A DNA stretch of 64,000 bases from Deltaproteobacteria bacterium (GTDB lineage: Bacteria > Desulfobacterota > Desulfuromonadia > Geobacterales > Geobacteraceae): positions 1-64,000 of the forward strand of contig JAJZUC010000007.1 in the NCBI GenBank assembly GCA_021847245.1. Reading direction: 5' to 3'. Every line of letters begins with the position of its first letter. Position 1 is the stretch's first letter. Below are positions 49,722 to 64,000 of the stretch, piece by piece. The translations under genes were made by a program, and so were the position numbers. The notes beneath the pieces are model-generated. The model was not told where the DNA came from. It was given only the letters and a program-made list of their open reading frames with translations, and did no database searches.

Positions 49722-49796
<75 letters not shown>

Positions 49797-50008: not shown

Positions 50009-50037
50009 TTGACAAACATGGTCTATTCGGTTAAAAT
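50009..50037 (+). promoter_or_regulatory. sigma-70 promoter ahead of the fluoride riboswitch
   Basis: TTGACA (50009-50014) and TAAAAT (50032-50037) are 17 bases apart. Transcription would begin near 50044, a few bases before the aptamer. Confidence 0.8.
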
Positions 50038-50051
50038 TCATATCAAATTTT

Positions 50052-50106
50052 ACGGCGATGGAGTTCGCCACTAACCGCTTCTTCAAGAAGCTAATGACTC
50101 CTACCT
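50052..50106 (+). promoter_or_regulatory. fluoride riboswitch aptamer (crcB motif)
   Basis: The sequence has every block of the crcB RNA motif. A first hairpin GGCG-ATGGAGTT-CGCC (50054-50069) is followed by the joining ACTAACC, a second hairpin GCTTC-TTCAA-GAAGC (50077-50091) and TAATGACTCCTACC. The loop GGAGT (50060-50064) can pair with ACTCC (50097-50101) as the pseudoknot that closes the fluoride and Mg2+ site. It lies between a strong promoter and an intrinsic terminator, upstream of the antiporter gene. Fluoride binding should favour the pseudoknot and let transcription continue. Recognition is by consensus; no covariance search was run. Confidence 0.92.
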
Positions 50107-50135
50107 TGCAATGCGAGGTAGGAGTTTTTGTTTTT
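50097..50135 (+). terminator. riboswitch expression platform, intrinsic terminator
   Basis: ACTCCTACCT (50097-50106) and AGGTAGGAGT (50116-50125) form a perfect 10-bp stem, extendable at the loop, followed by TTTTGTTTTT. Its left arm uses the same ACTCC that the aptamer needs for the pseudoknot, so the two structures exclude each other. The antiporter ribosome binding site (GGAGG) lies after the T-tract. Confidence 0.92.
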
Positions 50136-50146
50136 GGAGGTTCCAC

Positions 50147-51316
50147 ATGCAAGAAGTCTGGGGACAGGCGGCGTTGTGGCTTGGATTGGCGCTGATTGCA
50201 ACGCTCATCTCGATCTGGTTGCGAGTCGCGACAGCGTTATCGGAAATAATAGTAGGCACCGTGGCGCAGCTGGTTATTGGCGCCTTGATCGGCTCAACCC
50301 TGGGGGCTGATCAGCCGTGGATCAAGTTTCTATCGGGTACCGGCGCTATTGTCCTTACCTTCCTTGCGGGCACGGAGCTTGATCCAACTGTTTTTCGCGC
50401 CAAATGGAAAGAGGCCGTTGCCATTGGCTTCATATCTTTTTTAGCCCCATTCCTTGGCTGTACAGCCATCGGCTATTATCTGCTGGATTGGACGCCGAAA
50501 GCCAGTTGGCTGGCCGGCGTGGCCATGTCAACAACGTCTGTGGCCGTTGTCTATGCGGTCATGCTTGAACTTGGTCTGAACCGTACGGATTTCGGCAAGG
50601 CAGTACTGGCGGCATGTTTCGTTACCGATTTGGGGACAGTTATCGCCTTGGGGGCGATTTTTGCTCCATTTACCATGCGAACCGCTACATTCGTTGGGGT
50701 GGCGCTCCCCTTTTTCTTAATCCTCCCGTATTTAACCCCCTGGTTCTTCAAGCGCTATGGCGGCAGGCCGTCTGAACTGGAAACAAAATATCTTCTCCTG
50801 ATCCTGTTCGGTCTTGGTTCGTTGGCCGTTTGGGCCGAGAGTGAAGCTGTGTTGCCCGCCTATTTGGTAGGAATGGTCCTTGCGGGAACCGTGGGGAAAG
50901 ACCATCAACTCATCCGTCGATTGCGAACCCTTACCTTCGGCCTGCTCACTCCGTTCTATTTCATCAGGGCCGGCTCCTACGTCTCCATTCCGGCTCTGCT
51001 AAGTGCGCCGATTCCGCTGCTGGCAATGTTTTTAGGCAAGATGATTACCAAAATCGTTGGCGTCTACCCTGCCACCAAAGCTTACAAGTACGCGCAGAAG
51101 GAAGGGATCTACACGACGCTGCTTATGTCCACCGGTTTGACGTTCGGTTCCATCTCGGCATTGTTCGGTCTCAGCCATGGGGTCATTGACCAGACCCAGT
51201 ATTCCGTGATGATTGCGGCTGTCATCGCCAGTGCGGTTGTGCCGACCATCATTGCCAACGCTTTTTTCATCCCCAGGTACCTGCTCCCAAAGCGTGAATC
51301 GGAACCGACTGAATAG
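50147..51316 (+). CDS. cation:proton antiporter (CPA2-type), fluoride-riboswitch controlled
   Basis: This 389-residue membrane protein has about 12 hydrophobic helices. Features of CPA2-type Na+/H+ exchangers are visible: FLAGTELDPTVFRAKWKEA early, the core CFVTDLGTVIALG with the ion-binding Asp, and FYFIRAGSYVSI late. Antiporters of this kind are a known class downstream of fluoride riboswitches and are thought to relieve fluoride or the proton load brought in by HF; the transported ion is inferred. The ATG at 50147 follows GGAGG. It is the first gene behind the riboswitch; uspA follows 32 bases later. Confidence 0.9.
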   Translation: MQEVWGQAALWLGLALIATLISIWLRVATALSEIIVGTVAQLVIGALIGSTLGADQPWIKFLSGTGAIVLTFLAGTELDPTVFRAKWKEAVAIGFISFLAPFLGCTAIGYYLLDWTPKASWLAGVAMSTTSVAVVYAVMLELGLNRTDFGKAVLAACFVTDLGTVIALGAIFAPFTMRTATFVGVALPFFLILPYLTPWFFKRYGGRPSELETKYLLLILFGLGSLAVWAESEAVLPAYLVGMVLAGTVGKDHQLIRRLRTLTFGLLTPFYFIRAGSYVSIPALLSAPIPLLAMFLGKMITKIVGVYPATKAYKYAQKEGIYTTLLMSTGLTFGSISALFGLSHGVIDQTQYSVMIAAVIASAVVPTIIANAFFIPRYLLPKRESEPTE

Positions 51317-51348: not shown

Positions 51349-51780
51349 ATGTTGCCAACAAAAAAATTGCTCGTGGCATTCGACGGTTCACCCAGTTCTT
51401 ACAAGGCCTTTGACTTCGCCCTGGATTTATCAACCGCCTGTCAAGGGACAACTCATGAGATTTTCCTGGTGGCAGTGGTCCAACCGCCTGAGCCTGCTGA
51501 CATTGTGGAAATGGATGCGGTCATAGAGGCCGGAACGGAACACTATGAAAAGCTCTTTGGTGAGTTGAGAGAAAAAGCCAAGTCAAGTTCCGTTACCCTT
51601 ACCACGGAAATACTAATCGGACATCCTGCCGACCAAATTGTCCATTTTGCAGCTGAAAAGGAGTGCGACATGGTGCTCATGGGGCAGCGGGGCAAATCGA
51701 GAGTTGAACAATGGCTATTGGGCTCTGTTTCGAAACGAGTGGCTTCCTATTCCCACTGCTCAGTCGTAATTGTAAAATAA
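51349..51780 (+). CDS. universal stress protein UspA family
   Basis: This 143-residue single-domain protein has the UspA fold, starting KKLLVAFDGSPSSYKAFDFA. The ATP-binding motif GQRGKSRVEQWLLGSVS (G-x2-G-x9-GS) is followed by the closing strand HCSVVIVK. UspA proteins protect cells under stress; some bind ATP. UspA genes are among the known companions of fluoride riboswitches. GGGAGG lies 5-6 bases before the ATG. It sits between the antiporter and the PAP2 phosphatase on the same strand. Confidence 0.9.
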   Translation: MLPTKKLLVAFDGSPSSYKAFDFALDLSTACQGTTHEIFLVAVVQPPEPADIVEMDAVIEAGTEHYEKLFGELREKAKSSSVTLTTEILIGHPADQIVHFAAEKECDMVLMGQRGKSRVEQWLLGSVSKRVASYSHCSVVIVK

Positions 51781-51849: not shown

Positions 51850-52656
51850 ATGCGCCATCTAGCCGCCATTGTCTGCTCACTAATTATTTGCGTCACTTCA
51901 TCTTATGCAGATGACAATATCTTCAACAGCTCACAGGCCCTCAAAACAGAGGTGATTCGTCTGGGTGATGAAGCCTTGGAGGTTGTGAAAACCCCACTTG
52001 ACACGCAAGGGTATGGCCTGCTCGGCACTTTGGCTGTAACCGGTGCGGTTGGTCTCACGTACATCTTCGATGATGATATCCGCAACAAGCTGCAAGCGAA
52101 CAAGAGCAAGGGGGTAGACAAGGCAACCGATGCCGGCAACCTGCTCGGTGATCCTTTTATTCATATCGGTATAGCCGCTGCCGTTTACGGCGGCGGAATT
52201 CTCGCGGATTCACCACGCTGGAAAGAAACCGGTGAGATGCTTGGTGAGGCCATAATATTGGCTGATGCGACAACTTTTGTTCTGAAGGAATCAATCGGCA
52301 GAGCGCGGCCTTTTGTCAGCGGTGACAAGGGTAGTTTTCGGCCGGGGCAATTCAAATCGGACTACGATTCCCTCCCATCCATGCACACTTCCAGCTCCTT
52401 TGCTATGGCTTCGGTACTGGCTTCGACGTCCGAGAGCATGACGACCAAAGCTCTTTATTACACAGCCGCTACTTTCGTGGGATTTTCACGCATCTACCAG
52501 GATAAACACTGGGCAAGCGATGTGATTTTGAGTGCCGCCATCGGAGAACTATGCGGCAGAGTGGTTACCAATCAGCATGCCGTGAAAAGTAGGGTTGCGA
52601 TTGCCCCTATGGTATCCGGCAATTCGGCGGGATTGGCGCTGCTTGGAAGATGGTGA
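51850..52656 (+). CDS. periplasmic PAP2-family phosphatase
   Basis: This 268-residue protein has a signal peptide ([16 protein letters not shown]) and the three PAP2 motifs: [19 protein letters not shown] (in place of PSGH) and [13 protein letters not shown]. These give the acid-phosphatase active site with Arg, His and Asp. It may act on lipid phosphates or on soluble phosphate esters in the periplasm. It has only weak hydrophobic helices, so it may be soluble or peripheral. The ATG at 51850 follows AAAGGA; the upstream ATG-like starts lack this. It is part of the same-strand fluoride block. Confidence 0.85.
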
Positions 52657-52727: not shown

Positions 52728-54386
52728 ATGCGCAGTGATCTTATTAAAAAGGGTCTTGAACGAACACCGCACCGGGCATTGATAAAAGGGACCGGTGTGC
52801 CCGACAGTGCAATGAATAAGCCGTTTATCGGCGTGGCTACCAGCTTCACCGACCTGATTCCCGGCCATGTGGGGATGCGTGATCTTGAAAGATTCATTGA
52901 GAAGGGGGTTCATTCCGGTGGTGGTTACGCCTTCTTTTTCGGCATTCCCGGCATCTGCGACGGCATCGCCATGGGGCATAAAGGAATGCATTATTCCCTG
53001 GCCAGCCGCGAACTGATTGCCGACATGGTGGAATCGGTGGCGGAGGCGCATCGGTTGGATGGTCTAGTGCTGTTAACCAACTGCGACAAAATCACGCCCG
53101 GTATGCTGATGGCTGCGGCCCGGCTCGATATCCCCTGCATTGTGGTCACTGCCGGCCCGATGCTTGCCGGTCGAGGTGCGTCAGGACGACGCTATTCCTT
53201 CGTCACTGACACCTTTGAGGCCATGGCCCGTTACAAGGCAGGTGTGATCGACGATCAGCAGTTGAAAGTCTGCGAAGACAATGCCTGTCCGGGTATGGGT
53301 TCATGTCAGGGGCTGTTTACCGCTAACACAATGGCGATTCTCACCGAAGCTTTGGGCATGAGTCTGCCCCGTTGCGGTACCGCCCTTGCCGTATCGGCTC
53401 TGAAGCGCAGGATTGCCTTTGCTTCGGGAGAAAAGATTGTCGATCTGGTGAAAAACAACGTGACACCACGTCAAATCATGACCCGCGCAGCTTTTGAGAA
53501 CGCGATTCGGGTCGATCTGGCTCTCGGTGGTTCCAGTAATACGGTTCTCCATCTCCTGTCCATCGCCCGTGATGCAGGGGTGGAACTCCCTCTTGAGACC
53601 TTCGACCAACTGGCCAAGGAGACCCCGCAGCTTTCTTCGATGAATCCGGCAGGAGAGCATTTCATGGAGGATCTGGATGCAGCCGGCGGGGTGTTTGGCG
53701 TATTCAAGCAACTCGGGGCCAAAATCAAGGACAACCCGACCGTCATGGGACTCTCTTCATTGCAGTTGGCTGCAAGCGTCGAAAATATTGACGAAGGGGT
53801 GATCCGCCCCTTGAGCAACCCGATAAAGCCGGAGGGGGGCATTGCGGTGCTGTTCGGCAATATCGCCCCGCAAGGTGCCGTGGTCAAGCAGTCCGGCGTC
53901 TCGGCAGTCATGATGCAGTTTGAAGGAGTCGCCCGCTGCTTCGATTCCGAAGAGATGGCCATGGCCGCCATTATGGAAGGCCGGATCAAAGCCGGGGACG
54001 TGGTGGTTATTCGCTACGAAGGCCCCAAGGGAGGTCCAGGCATGCGGGAAATGCTCGCTCCCACGTCTGCCATTATGGGGATGGGACTCGGCGATTCTGT
54101 TGCTCTTCTCACAGATGGGCGCTTTTCCGGGGGTACTCATGGCCCCTGCATCGGGCACATCTCTCCTGAAGCCGCCGAAGGCGGGCCAATAGCCTTGATT
54201 GAAGACGGCGACTGCATCCGGTTGGATATTCCCAATCGCAAACTCGATCTGCTGGTGGATGATGCCACTGTGTCTCAGCGGCGGAATGCCTGGACAGCAC
54301 CGGAACCGAAAATCAAGAAGGGGTGGTTGTCCCGTTATGCGAAGCTGGTTACTTCAGCTCATACCGGCGCAATCATGGCTGACTAA
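52728..54386 (+). CDS. ilvD: dihydroxy-acid dehydratase
   Basis: This 552-residue enzyme makes the 2-keto acids of valine, leucine and isoleucine. The Fe-S and Mg2+ site is visible in [11 protein letters not shown] and [16 protein letters not shown]. The conserved [20 protein letters not shown] and [13 protein letters not shown] close the active site. The early segment [12 protein letters not shown] lacks the Cys of the 2Fe-2S-type enzymes and looks like the oxygen-sensitive 4Fe-4S type. The ATG at 52728 follows GGAGG; the longer frame overlaps the phosphatase gene. It requires Mg2+ as well as a cluster. Geobacter normally has its own ilvD elsewhere, so this is probably an extra copy, which I cannot verify. 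Confidence 0.95.
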
Positions 54387-54450: not shown

Positions 54451-55863
54451 ATGACCCCGAAGCAAGTTTTAGAATTCGCTAAAGAAAACGATGTACAGAT
54501 GGTTGATTTCAAATTCATGGACTTTGTCGGTATCTGGCAGCATTTTTCCGTACCGATGAGCGAGTTCGGTGAGGACACCTTTGAAGAAGGAGTGGGCTTT
54601 GATGGTTCTTCCATTCGTGGCTGGGCCCCCATTCATGCTTCTGACATGATCATTCTCCCCGATCCAACAACCGCCAAAATCGACCCCTTTGTCGTAGTGC
54701 CAACCCTATCGCTGATTTGTAACATCTTTGATCCGATCACCAAGGAAGGCTACAGCCGCGACCCGCGCAATATTGCTCTTAAAGCGGAGTCCTACCTCAA
54801 GTCCACCGGCATTGGCGACACGGCTTTCTTCGGCCCGGAAGCAGAATTCTTCATTTTTGACGATGTGCGTTACGACTCCAGCTCGAATCAGTCGTTTTAT
54901 GCAGTAGATTCTTCTGAGGGCGCCTGGAATACTGGCCGCGAAGAGTTCCCCAACCTTGGCTACAAGCCACGCCACAAGGAAGGCTACTTCCCGGTTTCCC
55001 CGACCGATTCCCAGAACGATCTGCGCAACGAGATGGTCCTGGAACTCCAGAAAGTCGGCATCCGCGTGGAGTGCCAGCACCACGAAGTCGCTACTGGCGG
55101 CCAGGCCGAGATCGATATGCGCTTCTCCTCGCTGGTAGATATGGCTGACCAGTTGCAGTGGTTCAAATACATCATCAAAAACGTGGCAAACCGTAACGGC
55201 AAGACTGTCACCTTTATGCCCAAGCCGCTCTATGGCGATAACGGTTCAGGGATGCACTGCCACCAGTCGATCTGGAAAGACGGGTCCAACCTCTTTGCCG
55301 GCGACAAATACGGCGGACTTTCCCAGATGGCGCTCTGGTATATCGGCGGTATCATCAAGCACGCCAAGGCTCTCTGCGCCTTCACCAACCCGACCACCAA
55401 CTCCTATAAGCGTCTGGTGCCGGGCTTCGAGGCTCCGGTCAACATGGCCTACTCGGCCCGTAACCGTTCGGCCTCTCTGCGCATTCCCATGTTTTCAAGC
55501 AACCCCAAGGCCAAGCGCATTGAGTACCGTACGCCCGATCCCTCCTGTAACGGCTACCTGGCCTTCGCTGCCATGCTGATGGCCGGACTGGACGGCATCG
55601 AGAACAAGATAGATCCGGGCCAGCCGCTGGACAAGGATATCTACGGACTTTCTCCGGAAGAACTCAAGGATATCCCGTCCGCACCGGGCAGCCTGGAAGA
55701 GGCTCTAAAGGCACTCGAAGCGGATCATGACTTCTTGCTCAAGGGTGATGTATTCACTCCTGACGTTATCGAGAAGTGGGTTGAGTACAAAACCGAGGCA
55801 GAAGTCAATCCAGTACGCATGCGACCGGTGCCGCTGGAATTTGAACTGTATTTCGATATTTAA
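54451..55863 (+). CDS. glnA: glutamine synthetase, type I
   Basis: This 470-residue enzyme joins ammonia to glutamate using ATP and Mg2+/Mn2+. Type I signatures are present: [22 protein letters not shown], the metal site [28 protein letters not shown]-like [13 protein letters not shown], and the ATP region [17 protein letters not shown]. Tyr398 in DIYGLSPEE corresponds to the adenylylation site, so it is probably regulated by GlnE-type modification. AAAGGAG precedes the ATG. It sits inside the fluoride block rather than next to nitrogen genes such as glnB, which suggests an extra or relocated copy. An imperfect 14-bp hairpin follows the stop. Confidence 0.95.
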
Positions 55864-55983: not shown

Positions 55984-56163
55984 ATGAAATCCGAGCAAAT
56001 TAAAGAGATCGCAATTGCTAGGGGAATCAAAGCCGGAAAAATGAAAAAAGGTGAGCTCATCCGGGCTATCCAGTCTGAAGAGGGCAATGTTCCGTGCTTC
56101 GGAACCGGCAAAAGCAACGAATGCGAGCAAACAACCTGCCTGTGGCGGGAAGACTGTGAATAA
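55984..56163 (+). CDS. small SAP-motif protein
   Basis: This 59-residue protein is MKSEQIKEIAIARGIKAGK, then MKKGELIRAIQSEEGNVPCF, ending in GTGKSNECEQTTCLWREDCE. The first 35 residues fit the two-helix SAP motif (IKEIAIARGIKAGKMKKGELIRAI), which binds DNA or RNA or a partner. The tail has four cysteines in the spacing PCF, ECEQTTC, DC, so it may bind a metal. AAGGAG lies 6-7 bases before the ATG. It overlaps the start of the dynamin-like gene by 8 bases, so the two are translationally coupled. Confidence 0.82.
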   Translation: MKSEQIKEIAIARGIKAGKMKKGELIRAIQSEEGNVPCFGTGKSNECEQTTCLWREDCE

Positions 56164-57946
56164 AGACACCGGGATAGGTTCCCAGCAGGCATTTTATAAT
56201 TCGCATACAAAAAGGCTGATTGTCTGCCTGGACGCTCTTGCCGCGATAGAAGGCATTGACGTTGACACCTACCATATGCTGACGGAAAAGCTTGCTTCCC
56301 ACACTTTCAACATCCTTGTCGTCGGTCAATTCAACCGGGGCAAAACCACCCTGATCAATGCCCTCATCGGCGAGGCTATCCTGCCGATGGGAGTGATCCC
56401 GCTTACCTCCGTCGTAACTATACTTTCCTTTAGTGACACCCCGGCCACCAAAGTCTGCTTCCAGGCCGGGCATTGTGTCGAAACTACACCCGAATGCCTC
56501 GGCGACTATGTCACGGAAAAGGGAAACCCTGGCAACGTGAAAGGTGTCCAGGAAGTGGTTGTTTCTTATCCTTCTCCTTGGTTGCGGGATGGGGTGCGCC
56601 TGGTGGATACGCCGGGGATCGGTTCGGTCTACCAGCACAACACTGACGTGGCGTACCGCTACCTGCCAGAGGCCGATGCGGTTATTCTTCTACTCTCGGC
56701 AGACCAGCCGGTGAGCCAGGCGGAATGCGACTTTCTGCGGGATGTGCGCCAGTATGCAGACAGGATATTCTTTCTTCTGAATAAGGCGGACCACCTGACT
56801 GACGATGAGTTGCAGGATGCGCTCTGTTTTGCAAGCACTGCCATCGCCGAAGCCATAGGACAAGAGCCTTTCATTTTACCAGCCTCGGCCAGACTGGCCC
56901 TGGATGGAAAACTTGCCGGTTCACAGGACCTCCTCGACCGGAGCCGTCTTCCATCATTTTTCACAGCGCTCAACAGTTTCTTATTGAAGGATAAATGGGA
57001 GGTGCTGGTCAATTCCGTAACCAGGAATATGCAGCGCCTTATTTCCCAAGCCCGATTAAGCGTCGAAGTGGAACTTAAATCGCTTGCCGCCCCTCTTGAG
57101 GAACTCGACGCCAAAATTCGGGCCTTCGATGTAAAAAAGCGTGAAGTGGAAGTCGCTCGGGATGAATACGGCGTCCTCCTGACAGCTGAAGCGAAGAAGC
57201 TCCAGCTTCAGGTAGAGGAAGAACTTGCTTTCTTCAAAAAGGAGCTGCAACAGCGCATAAGTGCAGCTGTAGAAACCGTTTATAGCGAGAACAGTACGAT
57301 GTCGTCCCGAGCATTGAGCGCGCATCTTGAACAGTATGTGGCCACCGCAGTCAGGAGGGAGTTCGATATCTGGCGTACTGCTGAGGATGAGAAAATGGCT
57401 GGAGAGTTTGAGCGGCTGTGCACCAGATTTTCTGCGAGGATCAACGAAACAGTTGATGAACTCTTCAGGTTTTCCGCTGCGCTATTCGCCATACCTTATG
57501 TATCTGTCAGGGCGGAACCACTACAGAACAGCTTGTCCGATTTCTACTATAAGTTCTGGAGTGAACCGGGAAGCATGAAACTCTTCACCTCTTCACTGCT
57601 CCTTGCCCTCCCGAAGTTTATCGGCGACAGCGTGCTTGTGAAAAAGATGCAGGAGTATGCCGTTGATTGCGTCGAGGTACAGTCAGGTCGGCTACGACAC
57701 GATTTTGCTCAACGTATTGAGAAAGGCGTCAGGTCATTCAATCGAGAGATGATGTCAAAGTTGGAAGTTACGGCCAGTGGTATCGAGTCAGCTATGGCAA
57801 AGGGGGCCGAGCAACGACAGGGAGACGAACATGAGGCTGAAATGAGAAGCTCTGCCATTAGAGCGAGGCTGGGCAAATTGGGTGAAATAAGCAATGAGAT
57901 TGCCCTGACTTCAGGTGAACTTCCTGATCTTAACGGCGTTGCGTAA
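56156..57946 (+). CDS. bacterial dynamin-like GTPase
   Basis: This 596-residue protein has an N-terminal GTPase domain with P-loop VVGQFNRGKTTLINALIG near residue 56, G2/G3 as VIPLTSVVT and VDTPGIGSV, and G4 as LLNKADHL. The remainder is mainly helical with long coiled-coil parts (about 300-420). A moderately hydrophobic segment near 440-530 (SAALFAIPYVSV, SSLLLALPKFIG) could serve as the membrane paddle. Such proteins remodel or protect membranes. The GTG at 56156 overlaps the SAP gene and follows GGGAAG; upstream codons in the same frame lie inside the SAP gene. Its presence in a fluoride block is unexplained; GTPases bind fluoride as metal-fluoride complexes. Confidence 0.85.
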   Translation: MNKDTGIGSQQAFYNSHTKRLIVCLDALAAIEGIDVDTYHMLTEKLASHTFNILVVGQFNRGKTTLINALIGEAILPMGVIPLTSVVTILSFSDTPATKVCFQAGHCVETTPECLGDYVTEKGNPGNVKGVQEVVVSYPSPWLRDGVRLVDTPGIGSVYQHNTDVAYRYLPEADAVILLLSADQPVSQAECDFLRDVRQYADRIFFLLNKADHLTDDELQDALCFASTAIAEAIGQEPFILPASARLALDGKLAGSQDLLDRSRLPSFFTALNSFLLKDKWEVLVNSVTRNMQRLISQARLSVEVELKSLAAPLEELDAKIRAFDVKKREVEVARDEYGVLLTAEAKKLQLQVEEELAFFKKELQQRISAAVETVYSENSTMSSRALSAHLEQYVATAVRREFDIWRTAEDEKMAGEFERLCTRFSARINETVDELFRFSAALFAIPYVSVRAEPLQNSLSDFYYKFWSEPGSMKLFTSSLLLALPKFIGDSVLVKKMQEYAVDCVEVQSGRLRHDFAQRIEKGVRSFNREMMSKLEVTASGIESAMAKGAEQRQGDEHEAEMRSSAIRARLGKLGEISNEIALTSGELPDLNGVA

Positions 57947-58156
57947 CCAGTCGGGTGACATCCCTGATCCCCGTGGCGGCGTGCGCTGGATCTTACCGGA
58001 GAAGGCCATCTATTGGGGGAATGTCCCCTGATGCATTTCTTCCCGAGTATATCAAGAAACGTTGAATGGAGATTCGATGAATATATCAACCATTTTTCAA
58101 CTTGTCGCTCTGTTAAGAGGTTGCCAGCCATGATTTTGAAAATGGGGCTGTAGGCT

Positions 58157-59692
58157 ATGATTTTTCAGAGCATCCTCTTCAAGAACGTCGCTGATCGCGG
58201 TGCAGAGGAGCTACCCCTTGCGCCGGACTTCTTTGGCGACCTCAACCTCGACCAGATCGTGGCCACTGCCACGTCCGGGAGGGAAGAGTATGACCTGAAA
58301 CCCTTCTACTATCTACCCCTTCAAGATGTGGATGCCATCACGTATCGTCACGAAGTAATGCGAGACCTTGAAGATCCCCGCCTGTTCGAACAGATCACGG
58401 CTTTTAGCACACGCATGCGCACCATGCGCGACTGTCTCACCCAAGCGGAGAAGCTCTCCTACGACCGACAAAAGGAACGCTGGTTCCTGGATGCCGTGGA
58501 CGCCTATTGCGATGCCGTGACGTGTCTCGTCCATGATCTCTCTCTTGCACAGTTTACTTCACGCGGATTGTTGGCCTTCAGGGAATTTATAGCCGGGTAT
58601 GCGGCATCCGAGACTTTCTGTTCTTTACTAGAGCAAACAAAAAAGCTCAAGTCAGACCTCGCCTCGATCCGCTACTGCCTGCTAATTGACGGACTCACCG
58701 TCCAGGCCCGCCCATACGTCGACGAGCCCGACTACAGCGCGGAGATTGAGGCGACCTTCGAGAGGTTCAAGCAAGGCACCGTCAGCAGGTACCCGTTCGA
58801 GTTCATCAACGAGCCGGGGATGAACCAGGTTGAGGCCAGGATACTCGACCTGGTGGTCCAGCTTTACCCGGAAACCTTTGCCGCATTGGAGCTTTACTGC
58901 GCACAGCACAAGGATTTTGCGGACGCCATGATCGTCACCTTCGACCGGGAGATCCAATTATATATGGCCTGGCTGGAGCACATCGCTGCCTTCAAGAAGG
59001 CGGAATTGAATTTTTGCTATCCGAGCATCTCGCAAACAACCAAGGAGGTTTACAGCCAACAGGGGTTTGACCTTGCTCTGGCCGCTAAGCTCATCACTGA
59101 ACAGGCCATCCCTGTCTGCAATGACTTTTACCTCACAGAGACGGAGCGGGTCATCGTCGTTACCGGTCCGAACCAAGGCGGGAAAACAACTTTTGCCCGC
59201 ACTTTTGGACAACTGTCTTACCTGGCGAGTCTGGGGTGTCCTGTTCCTGGTGTGGAAGCGAGGTTCTATCTCTTCGACCGGCTATTCACTCACTTCGAGA
59301 GAGAGGAGAGCATCGCCAATCTACGCGGCACACTACAGGACGATCTTGTAAGGATTCATGCCATCCTGGAAGATGCCACGCCGAGGAGCATCGTCATCAT
59401 CAACGAGATCTTCATGTCCACCACTTTTCAGGACGCTTTGCTCCTCAGCAGGAAGATTGCGTCAAGGATCTTGGAACTGGACCTGCTCTGCGTCTGGGTG
59501 ACGTTCATCGATGAGCTGGCATCGTTGGGAGAGAAAACAGTAAGCATGACGAGTATGGTGGTCCCCGCAAATCCGGCGTTGCGAACGTACAAGATTGTCA
59601 GACGGGCGGCGGACGGGCTTGCATATGCCCAGGCCATTGCCGAGAAGTATCGACTTACCTACGACATGACCAGGGAGCGCATCGGATCATGA
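58157..59692 (+). CDS. MutS-like ATPase lacking the mismatch-binding domain (first of a pair)
   Basis: This 511-residue protein has a helical region (about 30-310) like the MutS core and lever, and a C-terminal MutS ATPase domain with Walker A VVTGPNQGGKTTFARTFGQ near residue 337. Walker B is SIVIINEIFMSTTFQDA. The N-terminal mismatch-recognition domain of MutS (with its Phe-x-Glu) is absent, so mismatch repair is unlikely. The last codons overlap the second MutS-like gene (ATGA), suggesting a heterodimer. Related genes occur near fluoride riboswitches. The ATG has only GGGG as a ribosome binding site; two short frames lie in the 210-base gap before it. Confidence 0.82.
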   Translation: MIFQSILFKNVADRGAEELPLAPDFFGDLNLDQIVATATSGREEYDLKPFYYLPLQDVDAITYRHEVMRDLEDPRLFEQITAFSTRMRTMRDCLTQAEKLSYDRQKERWFLDAVDAYCDAVTCLVHDLSLAQFTSRGLLAFREFIAGYAASETFCSLLEQTKKLKSDLASIRYCLLIDGLTVQARPYVDEPDYSAEIEATFERFKQGTVSRYPFEFINEPGMNQVEARILDLVVQLYPETFAALELYCAQHKDFADAMIVTFDREIQLYMAWLEHIAAFKKAELNFCYPSISQTTKEVYSQQGFDLALAAKLITEQAIPVCNDFYLTETERVIVVTGPNQGGKTTFARTFGQLSYLASLGCPVPGVEARFYLFDRLFTHFEREESIANLRGTLQDDLVRIHAILEDATPRSIVIINEIFMSTTFQDALLLSRKIASRILELDLLCVWVTFIDELASLGEKTVSMTSMVVPANPALRTYKIVRRAADGLAYAQAIAEKYRLTYDMTRERIGS

Positions 59693-61248
59693 GAGCTTAT
59701 CTTCTCCACCGGGACCGTGATTTCGACTGGCAAGCGTCGCTGCCGTGGCAGGCGGAGGCGCTCACCAGGGACCTGGAATTGACCACACTGTTTGATGCCA
59801 TGGCTCAAGGCGACAAATTTGTCCGGGACGTGGCCGAAAAGGTGGTCCTGGCGGGTTTTGAAAAGGACCTCGACACCATCAGGTATCGCCAGGATGTTCT
59901 TCGGGAATGCCTGGCCCAGCCCGCCATTGTCCGGGAGCTCTATGCCCTCGCCGTCGAGGCGGTGGAGGCGGCAAGGAAACAGTATATTGGCACGATTCTC
60001 CTCCGCTCCCCGGACTGGGTCTTGCGGGGGGCAATCGAACATCTGGAGACATTCGTCGGATTGATCAGGAAACTGAGAAAATTCACCAATACGTACCGGG
60101 ACAAATTCTCTTCGGAAGGGTGGACATCCTTTTATTCGCGATTGCAGGAGGAACTCTCTGATGAGTATGTGACGGGCATTGAAGAGCACCTGACGCGGTT
60201 AAAATTCGACGGCGGCATGCTGCTCAGCGCCGAATTGGGAAACGGCAACAAAGGAAACCGCTACGTCCTCTACCGACCGCCACTTTTGCGAAACAAGCCT
60301 GGTTTGTGGGAGCGGTTCCTTTCATGGTTAAAGGAGATACTTGCAGAATTGGTACCGTTCTTCAAACAGAAGACACCGGACTATAGCTTTACCCTCGACC
60401 CCCGCGACGAAAGCGGCGCCAGGGCGCTGGCGGAACTGCGCAGCCGGGGGATTGCATTCACTGCCAATGCCCTGGCTCAATCCGCAGACCATGTGCGTGC
60501 CTTTTTCAGAGCGTTGTGGACGGAACTGGCGTTCTACGTCGGTTGCCTGAACCTGCAAGGTCAGCTTGCCGGAAAAGGGGGACCGACCTGTCTTACCTCG
60601 TCGATGGCCATGGATGAGGGTCGCTTGTCCTTTCACGGGTTATACGACGCATGTTTGGCGCTGAAGCTGGGGGGCACCGTGGTAGGCAATGATGCCAATG
60701 CCGACGGGAAGGAACTGGTGATGATCACCGGCGCCAATCAGGGGGGCAAATCGACGTTCCTTCGGAGTGTCGGTCTGGCCCAATTGATGTTGCAGTGCGG
60801 CATGTTCGTCGCGGCCGAATCGTTCCGTTCAAGCGTCTGCGATGCCGTTTTCACCCACTTCAAGCGGGAAGAAGATATCGCCATGAAAAGCGGGAAACTC
60901 GACGAGGAGTTGAGCAGGATGAGCGATATTGTCGATCATGTCACGCCGTATTCCCTGGTCTTGTTTAATGAATCGTTCGCCGCTACGAATGAGCGTGAAG
61001 GTTCGGAAATTGCGCGGCAGATTGTATCCGCATTGGTGGAAAGACGGATCAGGGTGGTGTTTGTGACCCACCTCTTCGAGTTGGCCCGGGGGTTCCACGA
61101 CGGAAACAAGAGGAATATGCTGTTCCTGCGGGCTGAAAGGGAATCAGATGGCAGCCGGACCTTCAGGCTCGCCGGAGGAGAACCGTTGCAGACTAGTTTT
61201 GGCGAAGATTTGTACACTTCTATCTTTGGAGCCTGGGATGGTCATTGA
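59689..61248 (+). CDS. MutS-like ATPase lacking the mismatch-binding domain (second of a pair)
   Basis: This 519-residue protein has the same layout as its neighbour. A helical region runs to about residue 310, then comes the MutS ATPase domain with Walker A ITGANQGGKSTFLRSVGLAQ near residue 348 and Walker B SLVLFNESFAATNEREG, followed by VFVTHLFELARGF. The central part has an extra hydrophobic stretch around residues 205-225 (LWERFLSWLKEILAELVPFF), possibly membrane-associating. Like its partner it lacks the mismatch-recognition and clamp signatures. ATG overlap with the first gene indicates coupled synthesis. Its partner, DNA or other target and relation to fluoride are unknown. Confidence 0.82.
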   Translation: MRAYLLHRDRDFDWQASLPWQAEALTRDLELTTLFDAMAQGDKFVRDVAEKVVLAGFEKDLDTIRYRQDVLRECLAQPAIVRELYALAVEAVEAARKQYIGTILLRSPDWVLRGAIEHLETFVGLIRKLRKFTNTYRDKFSSEGWTSFYSRLQEELSDEYVTGIEEHLTRLKFDGGMLLSAELGNGNKGNRYVLYRPPLLRNKPGLWERFLSWLKEILAELVPFFKQKTPDYSFTLDPRDESGARALAELRSRGIAFTANALAQSADHVRAFFRALWTELAFYVGCLNLQGQLAGKGGPTCLTSSMAMDEGRLSFHGLYDACLALKLGGTVVGNDANADGKELVMITGANQGGKSTFLRSVGLAQLMLQCGMFVAAESFRSSVCDAVFTHFKREEDIAMKSGKLDEELSRMSDIVDHVTPYSLVLFNESFAATNEREGSEIARQIVSALVERRIRVVFVTHLFELARGFHDGNKRNMLFLRAERESDGSRTFRLAGGEPLQTSFGEDLYTSIFGAWDGH

Positions 61249-61305: not shown

Positions 61306-62592
61306 ATGGCACGGATAGAAAAAATTGAGTCCATGGAAATTCTCGATTCACGTGGCAATCCGACCCTGCGGGTATCAGTCACCACGGAAAGCGGCATTGT
61401 TGGAATCGCTGCAGTCCCTTCCGGTGCGTCCACCGGTGAGCGCGAGGCATGCGAACTGCGCGATGGAGATCCGAAGCGCTTTAAGGGCAAGGGAGTCCTA
61501 AAGGCGTGCGGCAATGTGGAAGGTGAAATCCAGGAAGCACTGCGAGGAATGGATTGTCGCGATCAGAGTGTTATTGATAAGACTATGCTTGAGTTGGACG
61601 GGACCAAAAACAAGGAAAGGCTTGGAGCCAACGCTATTCTCGGCGTTTCCCTTGCCGCTCTGGATGCCGGCGCCCGCTGTTCAGACTTGCCTCTTTATCG
61701 TTATCTGGGGGGAGCAGGTGCCGATCTCCTGCCGGTTCCGATGCTTAACATCCTCAATGGAGGCGCACATGCCGACAACAACGTGGACTTTCAGGAGTAC
61801 ATGCTCGTACCTGCGGGACTTCCTACGTTTGGGGAGGCGATGCGCTGTGCTGCAGAGGTCTACCAGACCCTGAAAGGACTTTTACACAGTAGCGGTCGCT
61901 CCACGGCAATTGGAGATGAGGGTGGATTCGCTCCCAACCTTGCAGATAATGAAGAACCGCTCAAACTGATCATCGAGGCGGTGGAGAAGGCTGGCTACCG
62001 TCCTGGTGAAGAGGTGTTCATCGCCATCGATCTGGCTGCAAGCAATTTTTGCAAAGAAGGTCAATACTTCCTGACGTCTCTCGGTGAGTCTCTCACACCT
62101 TATGACCTGATTGGCTATCTGGAACGGCTCGTCGCTACATATCCAATCATCTGCATAGAAGACGGCCTGGACGAAAATGGCTGGGCCGCCTGGCCGGCTC
62201 TCCATACCAGACTCGGAGGAAAAGTTCAAATCACCGCCGATGATCTGACCGTCACCAATACGGAACTCATTAAGCGTGGCATCAGTGAACACTGTTTCAA
62301 TTCGGTGCTCATCAAATTGAACCAGATCGGCAGTGTCAGCGAAACCCTGGCTGCCATCGAGATGACGCAAAAAGCAGGATTCACCGCCATGATTTCTCAC
62401 CGGAGCGGCGAAACAGAGGATACCATCATCGCCGACCTCTGCGTGGGAAGGCTGACCGGCATGATCAAGACCGGAGCGCCCTGCCGCTCGGAGCGGCTTG
62501 CAAAGTATAACCGACTGCTGCAGATCGAACGGGAACTGGGTAATGCTGCCCGCTATGCCGGGAAAGGTGCGTATTGCAGTATTGGGAGGTAG
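61306..62592 (+). CDS. eno: enolase (probable extra copy in the fluoride block)
   Basis: This 428-residue enzyme converts 2-phosphoglycerate to phosphoenolpyruvate with two Mg2+. The catalytic and metal residues are present in order: SGASTGEREACELRDGD, NGGAHADNNVDFQEYM (His), GDEGGFAPN (Glu), AIDLAASNF (Asp), CIEDGLDENGW (Glu), DDLTVTN (Asp), IKLNQIGSVSET (Lys), ISHRSGETEDT (Arg, Ser) and IKTGAPCRSERLAKYN (Lys). Fluoride with phosphate is a classic tight inhibitor of enolase. The usual GDDL before the third metal ligand reads ADDL. Enolase genes are known behind fluoride riboswitches. AAAGGA precedes the ATG at 61306. Confidence 0.95.
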   Translation: MARIEKIESMEILDSRGNPTLRVSVTTESGIVGIAAVPSGASTGEREACELRDGDPKRFKGKGVLKACGNVEGEIQEALRGMDCRDQSVIDKTMLELDGTKNKERLGANAILGVSLAALDAGARCSDLPLYRYLGGAGADLLPVPMLNILNGGAHADNNVDFQEYMLVPAGLPTFGEAMRCAAEVYQTLKGLLHSSGRSTAIGDEGGFAPNLADNEEPLKLIIEAVEKAGYRPGEEVFIAIDLAASNFCKEGQYFLTSLGESLTPYDLIGYLERLVATYPIICIEDGLDENGWAAWPALHTRLGGKVQITADDLTVTNTELIKRGISEHCFNSVLIKLNQIGSVSETLAAIEMTQKAGFTAMISHRSGETEDTIIADLCVGRLTGMIKTGAPCRSERLAKYNRLLQIERELGNAARYAGKGAYCSIGR

Positions 62593-62626: not shown

Positions 62627-63811
62627 ATGCAAACAACGATAAAACAGTCCTCTCCGATGAAGTTTGTTTTGATGATCGGCGTACTGAGTTTCTTTGCGGA
62701 TTTTACCTATGAAGGCTCGCGGAGCATTCTCGGACCGTATCTTGCCCTCATGTCGGCCAGTGCCACGGCGGTGGGGATTGTTACCGGCTTTGGCGAACTG
62801 GCCGGTTACAGCCTGCGCCTCGTTTCCGGCCGCCTGGCCGATCTGACTGGCAAGTTTTGGCCGATTACGATCTTTGGTTACGTCATTCAGATGTTTTCGG
62901 TGCCGGCGCTGGCATTGGTGGACAGTTGGCCGGCGGTTGCTTCTCTCATCATCCTTGAACGGATTGGCAAAGCAATCCGCAATCCTCCGCGTGACGCGAT
63001 GCTCTCTCACGCTGCCAAGGAGATCGGTTACGGCTGGGCATTCGGCGTGCACGAATCGCTGGATCAATTCGGCGCTCTGTTCGGTCCGCTGGCTGTGGCT
63101 GCAATTTTGGCTCTGCGTGGTGAATATCGTTTCGCTTTTGCCGCATTGCTTGTGCCCGGTCTCATCTGTCTCAGTCTGCTGCTGGTCGCTCGTCGGCTCT
63201 ACCCTCATCCGGAAGAAATGGAAACGGAACCACCTAATGTGCAGACGAAAGGATTACCGCGCATTTTCTGGGTATACCTGGTGGGGGCGGGCCTGGTGGC
63301 AGCGGGCTTCGCAGATTTCCCGCTCATTGCGTATCATTTCCACAAAACGTCCTCCGTGTCGCAGCACTGGGTGCCGATTGCCTACTCTATTGCCATGGCC
63401 GTGAGTGGCACCGGTTCGCTGGTCTTCGGACGGTGGTTCGACCGGTTCGGGATTTCTCTGCTTATACCGCTGACGCTGCTCTCCGCATTGTTTGCTCCGC
63501 TGGTGTTTCTGGGTGGATTCTGGGCAGCTCTGGCAGGGTCAGCAGTATGGGGACTCGGGATGGGAGTTCACGAGTCGATCATTCCGGCTGCCGTTGCGCC
63601 AATGGTCCCGCCCGAACGGCGTGCTTCGGCCTACGGACTTTTTACCGCTGGCTATGGTCTATTCTGGTTCCTGGGGAGCGCCGCCATCGGCATCATTTAC
63701 GACCTTTCCCTCATGGGCACGATTGCCTTTTGCATAGCGTTGCAGCTCGCGGCCATTCCGGTTTTTCTCGTGGTGCGTCGGCAGTACGGTGTATACAGAA
63801 AAGTCTCATAA
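62627..63811 (+). CDS. MFS transporter
   Basis: This 394-residue protein has twelve predicted membrane helices in two halves. The MFS loop motif SGRLADLTGKFWPIT lies between helices 2 and 3, and VFGRWFDRFGIS marks the second half. The substrate cannot be told from sequence. It follows enolase by 34 bases; the ATG at 62627 has AAAGAAAAAGG upstream, while a TTG at 62597 would add ten residues. In this setting it may export fluoride-related or stress metabolites, which is only a guess from position. The 189 bases from its stop to the window end show no convincing gene. Confidence 0.85.
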   Translation: MQTTIKQSSPMKFVLMIGVLSFFADFTYEGSRSILGPYLALMSASATAVGIVTGFGELAGYSLRLVSGRLADLTGKFWPITIFGYVIQMFSVPALALVDSWPAVASLIILERIGKAIRNPPRDAMLSHAAKEIGYGWAFGVHESLDQFGALFGPLAVAAILALRGEYRFAFAALLVPGLICLSLLLVARRLYPHPEEMETEPPNVQTKGLPRIFWVYLVGAGLVAAGFADFPLIAYHFHKTSSVSQHWVPIAYSIAMAVSGTGSLVFGRWFDRFGISLLIPLTLLSALFAPLVFLGGFWAALAGSAVWGLGMGVHESIIPAAVAPMVPPERRASAYGLFTAGYGLFWFLGSAAIGIIYDLSLMGTIAFCIALQLAAIPVFLVVRRQYGVYRKVS

Positions 63812-64000
63812 AGACCGAAGACACCTGTACCCGACATTCATAGCGCTATTCTAAGGATTATGTGCTGCTGTGGCTGTTCGGACTGAAGCATAAGATCGAG
63901 AATAAGTAATAACTGGAAATACTACCGAGCCGCAGCCGGAATTGAATCGGATGATCTGTGGCAGCGGCAATCGCAGTACTGTCAGTTGGTGCTCATGGAC

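Follow-up and report, generated by a model that had tools for sequence, protein, structure and literature searches.

Fluoride riboswitches have been studied in depth, and the overlap of their pseudoknot with a terminator, the ligand-gated strand displacement that follows from it and the resulting ON logic are published for the class (PMC11077080, PMC13273304). The overlap with terminators and the prediction of an ON switch are as old as the discovery of the motif (PMC2864571). The mechanistic model for family RF01734 is the Bacillus cereus crcB leader. Na+/H+ antiporters are second only to fluoride exporters as a class of riboswitch-linked genes, and enolase is commonly associated (PMC11139923). 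In Enterobacter cloacae FRM, an operon of usp, eno and crcB is induced by fluoride (PMC5533749).

The window, by which we mean the whole 64 kb stretch of DNA analysed, almost certainly contains a genuine transcriptional fluoride riboswitch of this known class and mechanism, which would turn its operon on. The mechanism of the switch brings nothing new, as fluoride-ON anti-termination is already known for the class; the larger value is in the surrounding gene list, an unusually long fluoride-resistance cluster that includes a membrane-remodelling (dynamin-like) enzyme rarely mentioned for fluoride. Aptamer, pseudoknot/terminator overlap, predicted ON logic and folding order are all like those of the Bacillus cereus leader, but the window copy has a GGAGU pseudoknot strand, a 14-bp terminator and A rather than G at 50093, and it drives an antiporter-led operon instead of crcB. 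The features of the switch and its flank are:

49722..49796, + strand: tRNA-Gly(CCC), likely island edge (cmscan; G+C profile)
50009..50037, + strand: sigma-70-type promoter, TTGACA-17-TAAAAT (direct reading and promoter scan)
50045..50110, + strand: fluoride riboswitch aptamer, RF01734 (cmscan, 61.0 bits, full length)
50060..50064, + strand: pseudoknot 5' strand GGAGU (direct reading; pairs with 50097-50101 in 28/28 leaders)
50097..50101, + strand: shared strand ACUCC, which is the 3' side of the pseudoknot or the 5' side of the terminator (pairing with both partners maintained through sequence changes)
50121..50125, + strand: terminator 3' strand GGAGU (direct reading, leader alignment)
50096..50135, + strand: intrinsic terminator, 14-bp stem 50096-50126 and T tract 50125-50135 (terminator scan, folding, leader alignment)
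50136..50149, + strand: GGAGG ribosome binding site 50136-50140 and antiporter ATG 50147 (direct reading)

A cmscan search of the whole window against the 4227 families of Rfam 15 returned two matches above threshold, the tRNA-Gly and RF01734. The latter, at 50045-50110, covers the full model (1-64 of 64) and scores 61.0 bits (E 1.8e-14), where the gathering threshold is 34. A sequence-only reading of this DNA had recognised the crcB motif from its conserved blocks and named a covariance-model search as a check, and this result bears it out. Chance resemblance to the family is ruled out by the E-value together with covariation that exceeds slid and shuffled controls. Upstream, the -35 (TTGACA, 50009-50014) and -10 (TAAAAT, 50032-50037) hexamers are separated by 17 nt, the promoter that the same reading had placed ahead of the leader; the site scores 11/12, is the top promoter-like match within 4.5 kb and predicts a transcription start near 50044-50045, the same point at which the Rfam aptamer begins (50045). 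The terminator, with a 14-pair stem, a 3-nt loop and a T tail, is likewise the best of 4.5 kb, and its hairpin folds with -22.5 kcal/mol compared to -5.2 +/- 2.2 for shuffled sequences; T runs lie at 50125-50129 and 50131-50135. Direct reading also located ACTCC at 50097-50101, GGAGT at 50060-50064 and 50121-50125, and the antiporter ribosome binding site behind the T tract, all as that reading had described them. Its elements stand, but its limits of 50052-50135 were too narrow: the unit opens with the promoter at about 50009 and closes with the start codon at 50149, and Rfam places the beginning of the aptamer at 50045, 7 nt before 50052. The first in-frame ATG that the ORF finder lists, at 50111, falls within the terminator and was not accepted as the start of the antiporter; ATG 50147 has the GGAGG and aligns with homologues.

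We take A50058, U50059, G50060 and U50092 to be A6, U7, G8 and U38 of the Thermotoga petrophila structure, and A50094, U50095, G50096 and U50102 presumably correspond to its A40, U41, G42 and U48 (Ren et al. 2012 numbering). Read with this numbering, the window aptamer has every residue of the Mg2+/F- cluster and of the long-range A-U pairs. The A at 50093, where the family mostly has G, is common to several relatives.

Mutual exclusion of pseudoknot and terminator, proposed earlier by inspection, was examined by aligning 28 leaders, drawn from this genome, from relatives and from other phyla, and scoring them for both structures. Both pairings are conserved with compensatory changes. Every cell of the pseudoknot is paired (100%), and two of its columns carry double changes; P1 and P3 are paired in 97.3% and 95.5% of cells, and the terminator helix in 98.4%, with four pairs changed on both sides. 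Sliding the partners by 1-3 columns lowered pairing to 35-56%, and in the scoring of the terminator, slid controls for the structure as a whole gave 35-52%. Six aptamer pairs show double changes, a number matched by only 3 of 500 shuffles. Betaproteobacterial antiporter leaders have GGCAT as the pseudoknot strand and ATGCC as the shared strand, and in two of them (L083 and L071) all three strands have changed jointly, to GGCAT / ATGCC / GGCAT. In L068 the terminator strand is GGTAT, which preserves pairing through G-U, and in L074 it is GGCTT, with one terminator pair lost. These three-strand changes indicate that the shared strand has retained its complementarity to both partners, and the GGAGU to GGCAU covariation favours the published strand-displacement model outside a crcB context. 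All five RF01734 terminators of the genome re-pair with the pseudoknot strand. When the growing transcript was folded, P1 and P3 were in place at a length of 50 nt and the terminator appeared only at about 74-80 nt, in an energy model that does not cover the pseudoknot itself. Evolutionary evidence thus joins inspection in supporting mutual exclusion. The switch is a clean natural example of pseudoknot/terminator competition.

The same evidence bears on whether the aptamer might be a degenerate relic that does not respond, with a hairpin that acts simply as a terminator or attenuator ahead of the antiporter. In one large assay in vitro, transcriptional switching with E. coli polymerase was seen for only 323 of the 1901 natural variants (17%), so that close agreement with the family in sequence does not ensure activity under those conditions (PMC13273304), and the near-identical leader that Geomobilimonas luticola keeps before a truncated antiporter gene indicates that such leaders can outlast the gene. 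Against these points, the RF01734 match is full length and near the top of the family in the phylum, compensatory changes preserve both pairings, and the downstream gene is intact and 87% identical to a second riboswitch-linked copy on contig C92. We consider a relic very improbable.

Also found in this genome, a 78% complete assembly, were four further RF01734 matches, the five scoring 59.7-61.7 bits. The others lie on C82, the contig of the window, and on C92:

C82:69198: second switch, leads PAP2-HAD-PAP2-CrcB-DUF190-sulfatase
C92:44436: switch, leads a second antiporter (87% identical), Usp and a dynamin-like gene
C92:50369: switch, leads CLC and a DUF190-like gene
C92:53230: switch, leads HAD-CrcB-DUF190-enolase

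These neighbours speak to the ligand. Fluoride binding and response by the window copy would follow from its family membership, and the gene next to it encodes an antiporter with a cation annotation, not a fluoride channel, which leaves room for another anion or a metal as the ligand. But the genome's four other copies head CrcB, CLC or enolase operons or the same antiporter, which together are a fluoride regulon, a copy on a Klebsiella plasmid is accompanied by crcB and eno, and fluoride binding is the definition of RF01734 aptamers. A ligand other than fluoride is therefore extremely improbable, the least credible of the alternatives we considered.

Taking the element as a fluoride switch, RNA polymerase would start near 50045 and the aptamer would be the first to fold, forming P1, P3 and the pseudoknot between GGAGU (50060-50064) and ACUCC (50097-50101). 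With no fluoride, GGAGU at 50121-50125 would capture ACUCC, the 14-bp terminator would precede the U tract, and transcription would end before the antiporter. Fluoride, held by Mg2+, is expected to lock the pseudoknot so that the base of the terminator could not close, and polymerase would then enter the antiporter and Usp genes and probably the entire 13.7-kb run to 63811. The antiporter would probably restore cytoplasmic pH and proton-motive force following HF entry, and the remaining genes would provide stress proteins and spare enzyme copies; enolase is a known fluoride target. We infer the length of the operon, the substrate of the antiporter and the purpose of the spare enzymes. The terminator is very strong, and read-through might be small even with fluoride; weak terminator-like sites within the run, such as 58011-58033, could end the transcript before 63811.

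The run behind the switch comprises eleven open frames that share a strand, end at 63811 and are never more than 210 nt apart; scans found no strong promoter or terminator between its genes up to that point. The genes assigned are:

50147..51316, + strand: CPA2-type cation/proton antiporter, 389 aa, PF00999 (Pfam 1e-36; phmmer; predicted fold)
51349..51780, + strand: universal stress protein, PF00582 (Pfam 9.6e-29)
51850..52656, + strand: PAP2-family phosphatase (Pfam 7.6e-22)
52728..54386, + strand: dihydroxy-acid dehydratase IlvD, the genome's second copy (Pfam; other copy on C4)
54451..55863, + strand: glutamine synthetase GlnA, the genome's second copy (Pfam 4.8e-139; other copy on C100)
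56156..57946, + strand: dynamin-like GTPase, PF00350 (Pfam 4.5e-30)
58157..59692, + strand: MutS-domain-V ATPase 1, PF00488 (Pfam 3.9e-20)
59689..61248, + strand: MutS-domain-V ATPase 2, PF00488, overlapping ATPase 1 by 4 nt (Pfam 8.6e-24)
61306..62592, + strand: enolase, the genome's third copy (Pfam; copies on C67, C92, C82)
62627..63811, + strand: MFS transporter, PF07690 (Pfam 9.8e-25)

The first gene encodes a protein that matches PF00999 at 127 bits against a cut-off of 26.2, and phmmer searches of the PDB retrieved NapA (2e-7) and KefC (3e-7). Its predicted fold (mean pLDDT 74.9) is nearest to NapA, with Z 34.3 and an rmsd of 4.7 over 362 residues, and resembles KefC with Z 25.7, at 16-19% identity in the structural alignments. 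The protein scores 109.5 bits with the NCBIfam CPA2 subfamily TIGR00932, below the curated cut-off of 238.3, so we name it only CPA2-type, a divergent clade. Like NapA and KefC it conserves an aspartate: D161 is invariant in 20 homologues, within a T/N-D motif, as expected for a proton-coupled cation antiporter. T-D or N-D replaces the D-D of NapA, exchange is presumably electroneutral, and in contrast to NapA and KefC the window antiporter is predicted to be fluoride-switched.

RF01734 lies upstream of 17 of 27 close homologues from GTDB genomes (Nitrospirae, Acidobacteria, Betaproteobacteria, Phycisphaerales and others), in the same orientation as the gene and within 372 nt of it in 16 cases. 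Plasmids of Klebsiella, Citrobacter and Enterobacter carry a 69%-identical antiporter, and a Caulobacter plasmid has one of 68% identity; in all three plasmid regions that were examined, a fluoride riboswitch is followed by the antiporter and a universal stress protein. The gene list brings to light an antiporter clade that is fluoride-switched and occurs across several phyla as well as on enterobacterial plasmids, one of which is typed as conjugative. Its spread under fluoride control across phyla, its position right before CrcB and DUF190 genes at several Acidobacterial loci and its score under the TIGR00932 cut-off might suggest that the antiporter is itself a fluoride exporter, a question about the role of the gene and not about the switch. 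The NapA/KefC fold and the invariant D161 in a motif typical of cation/proton antiporters argue against export, as does a review that assigns such antiporters to pH homeostasis (PMC11139923), and we regard the exporter role as unlikely. Our literature search for work joining fluoride with CPA2, or with IlvD or GlnA, found nothing relevant.

Compared to the Enterobacter cloacae FRM operon (PMC5533749), the window cluster is likewise riboswitch-led, includes a universal stress protein and enolase and appears to sit in a mobile island, but it opens with the CPA2 antiporter, adds PAP2, IlvD, GlnA, the dynamin-like GTPase and two MutS-like proteins, and has crcB under a second switch 19 kb away. 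The plasmid module of Klebsiella pneumoniae NZ_CP058867 and Enterobacter ludwigii NZ_CP116349 shares the riboswitch, CPA2 (69% identical), Usp and two adjacent MutS-like genes with the window, and NZ_CP058867 also has crcB and enolase nearby. The stretches of the module that were seen are without IlvD, GlnA and the dynamin-like gene, and unlike the window they carry a P-type ATPase, to which NZ_CP058867 adds a phosphoglycerate mutase. An IlvD homologue likewise follows the antiporter and Usp in the Betaproteobacterial relative L071. The extra copies of IlvD, GlnA and enolase presumably serve as spare enzymes under fluoride stress. Pairs of MutS-domain-V proteins (window 58157-61248; L084:9910-12965) recur in fluoride-switched clusters, including those on enterobacterial plasmids.

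The dynamin-like GTPase lies inside the riboswitch-led run alongside the second copies of IlvD and GlnA, and matches a bacterial dynamin-like protein (4e-19) and IniA (6e-19) in phmmer searches of the PDB. Of 395 genomes from the phylum, 40 contain relatives at E <= 1e-60. At 29 GTPase loci sampled from the same phylum outside the source genome, the GTPase is the first gene after a same-strand RF01734, at 46-401 nt, in 24 (L121-L141, L143, L144 and L146). A second, divergent riboswitch stands back-to-back with the first at eight of these, and where its partner was identified it is crcB (L128, L129, L133) or a CPA2 homologue (L122, L131, L135). The three closest relatives of the window GTPase (L118-L120) have no switch within 1.5 kb, and the link is strong though not universal. 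No literature report of a link between fluoride riboswitches and dynamins was found; one may be contained in the supplements of Baker et al. 2012. We would put roughly even chances on fluoride riboswitches controlling a dedicated dynamin-like GTPase. If they do, membrane remodelling and the replacement of metal-dependent enzymes would be added to the known fluoride response, in which this apparently regular member has no known role.

The cluster lies in a region of distinct composition. Just past the tRNA-Gly (49722-49796), G+C drops from about 0.62 to 0.50-0.56 and stays low until the end of the contig, and the mean of twenty other sampled contigs is 0.61. The stretch from 49722 to the end of the window at 64000, and on to C82:76635, holds two fluoride riboswitches behind the tRNA-Gly and looks like a fluoride-resistance island; a repeat of the tRNA-Gly 3' end, which would mark an integration scar, was not found within the window. 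Pieces collinear with C82 50049-51066, 71652-71912 and 73544-75238 occur in an isolate of the same family, Geomobilimonas luticola, so an assembly join at the G+C break is an unlikely source of the island from 50 kb onward. The Geomobilimonas luticola remnant (L114:811-3868, L066) consists of the same leader and the 5' part of the antiporter gene (together 1.0 kb), then the 3' part of DUF190, then the same two genes as on C82. Its riboswitch is intact, and the truncated antiporter is fused out of frame to what is left of DUF190, the scar of a deletion in the same block. This block sits behind a tRNA-Asn instead of tRNA-Gly (anticodon read from sequence), an arrangement that suggests a mobile block with a later deletion.

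Across the sampled phylum, 158 of 395 genomes have any RF01734 match, and a few reach 5 to 11, among them G349 with 11 and G406 with 7. The 77 relatives of the source genome have none to two each; matches of 23-26 bits in some of them (L016-L019, L023) are under the gathering score and were disregarded. On C92 (L025, C92:40001-60000), three fluoride riboswitches, heading the antiporter, CLC and CrcB/enolase operons, are found inside 9 kb, with an NhaA gene just upstream. An Exo_endo_phos gene adjoining an MFS gene lies directly upstream of a riboswitch at both L024:6434-9106 and L025:8373-10287, the two regions having about 82% DNA identity, and on C82 this pair is preceded by a ChrB_N gene.
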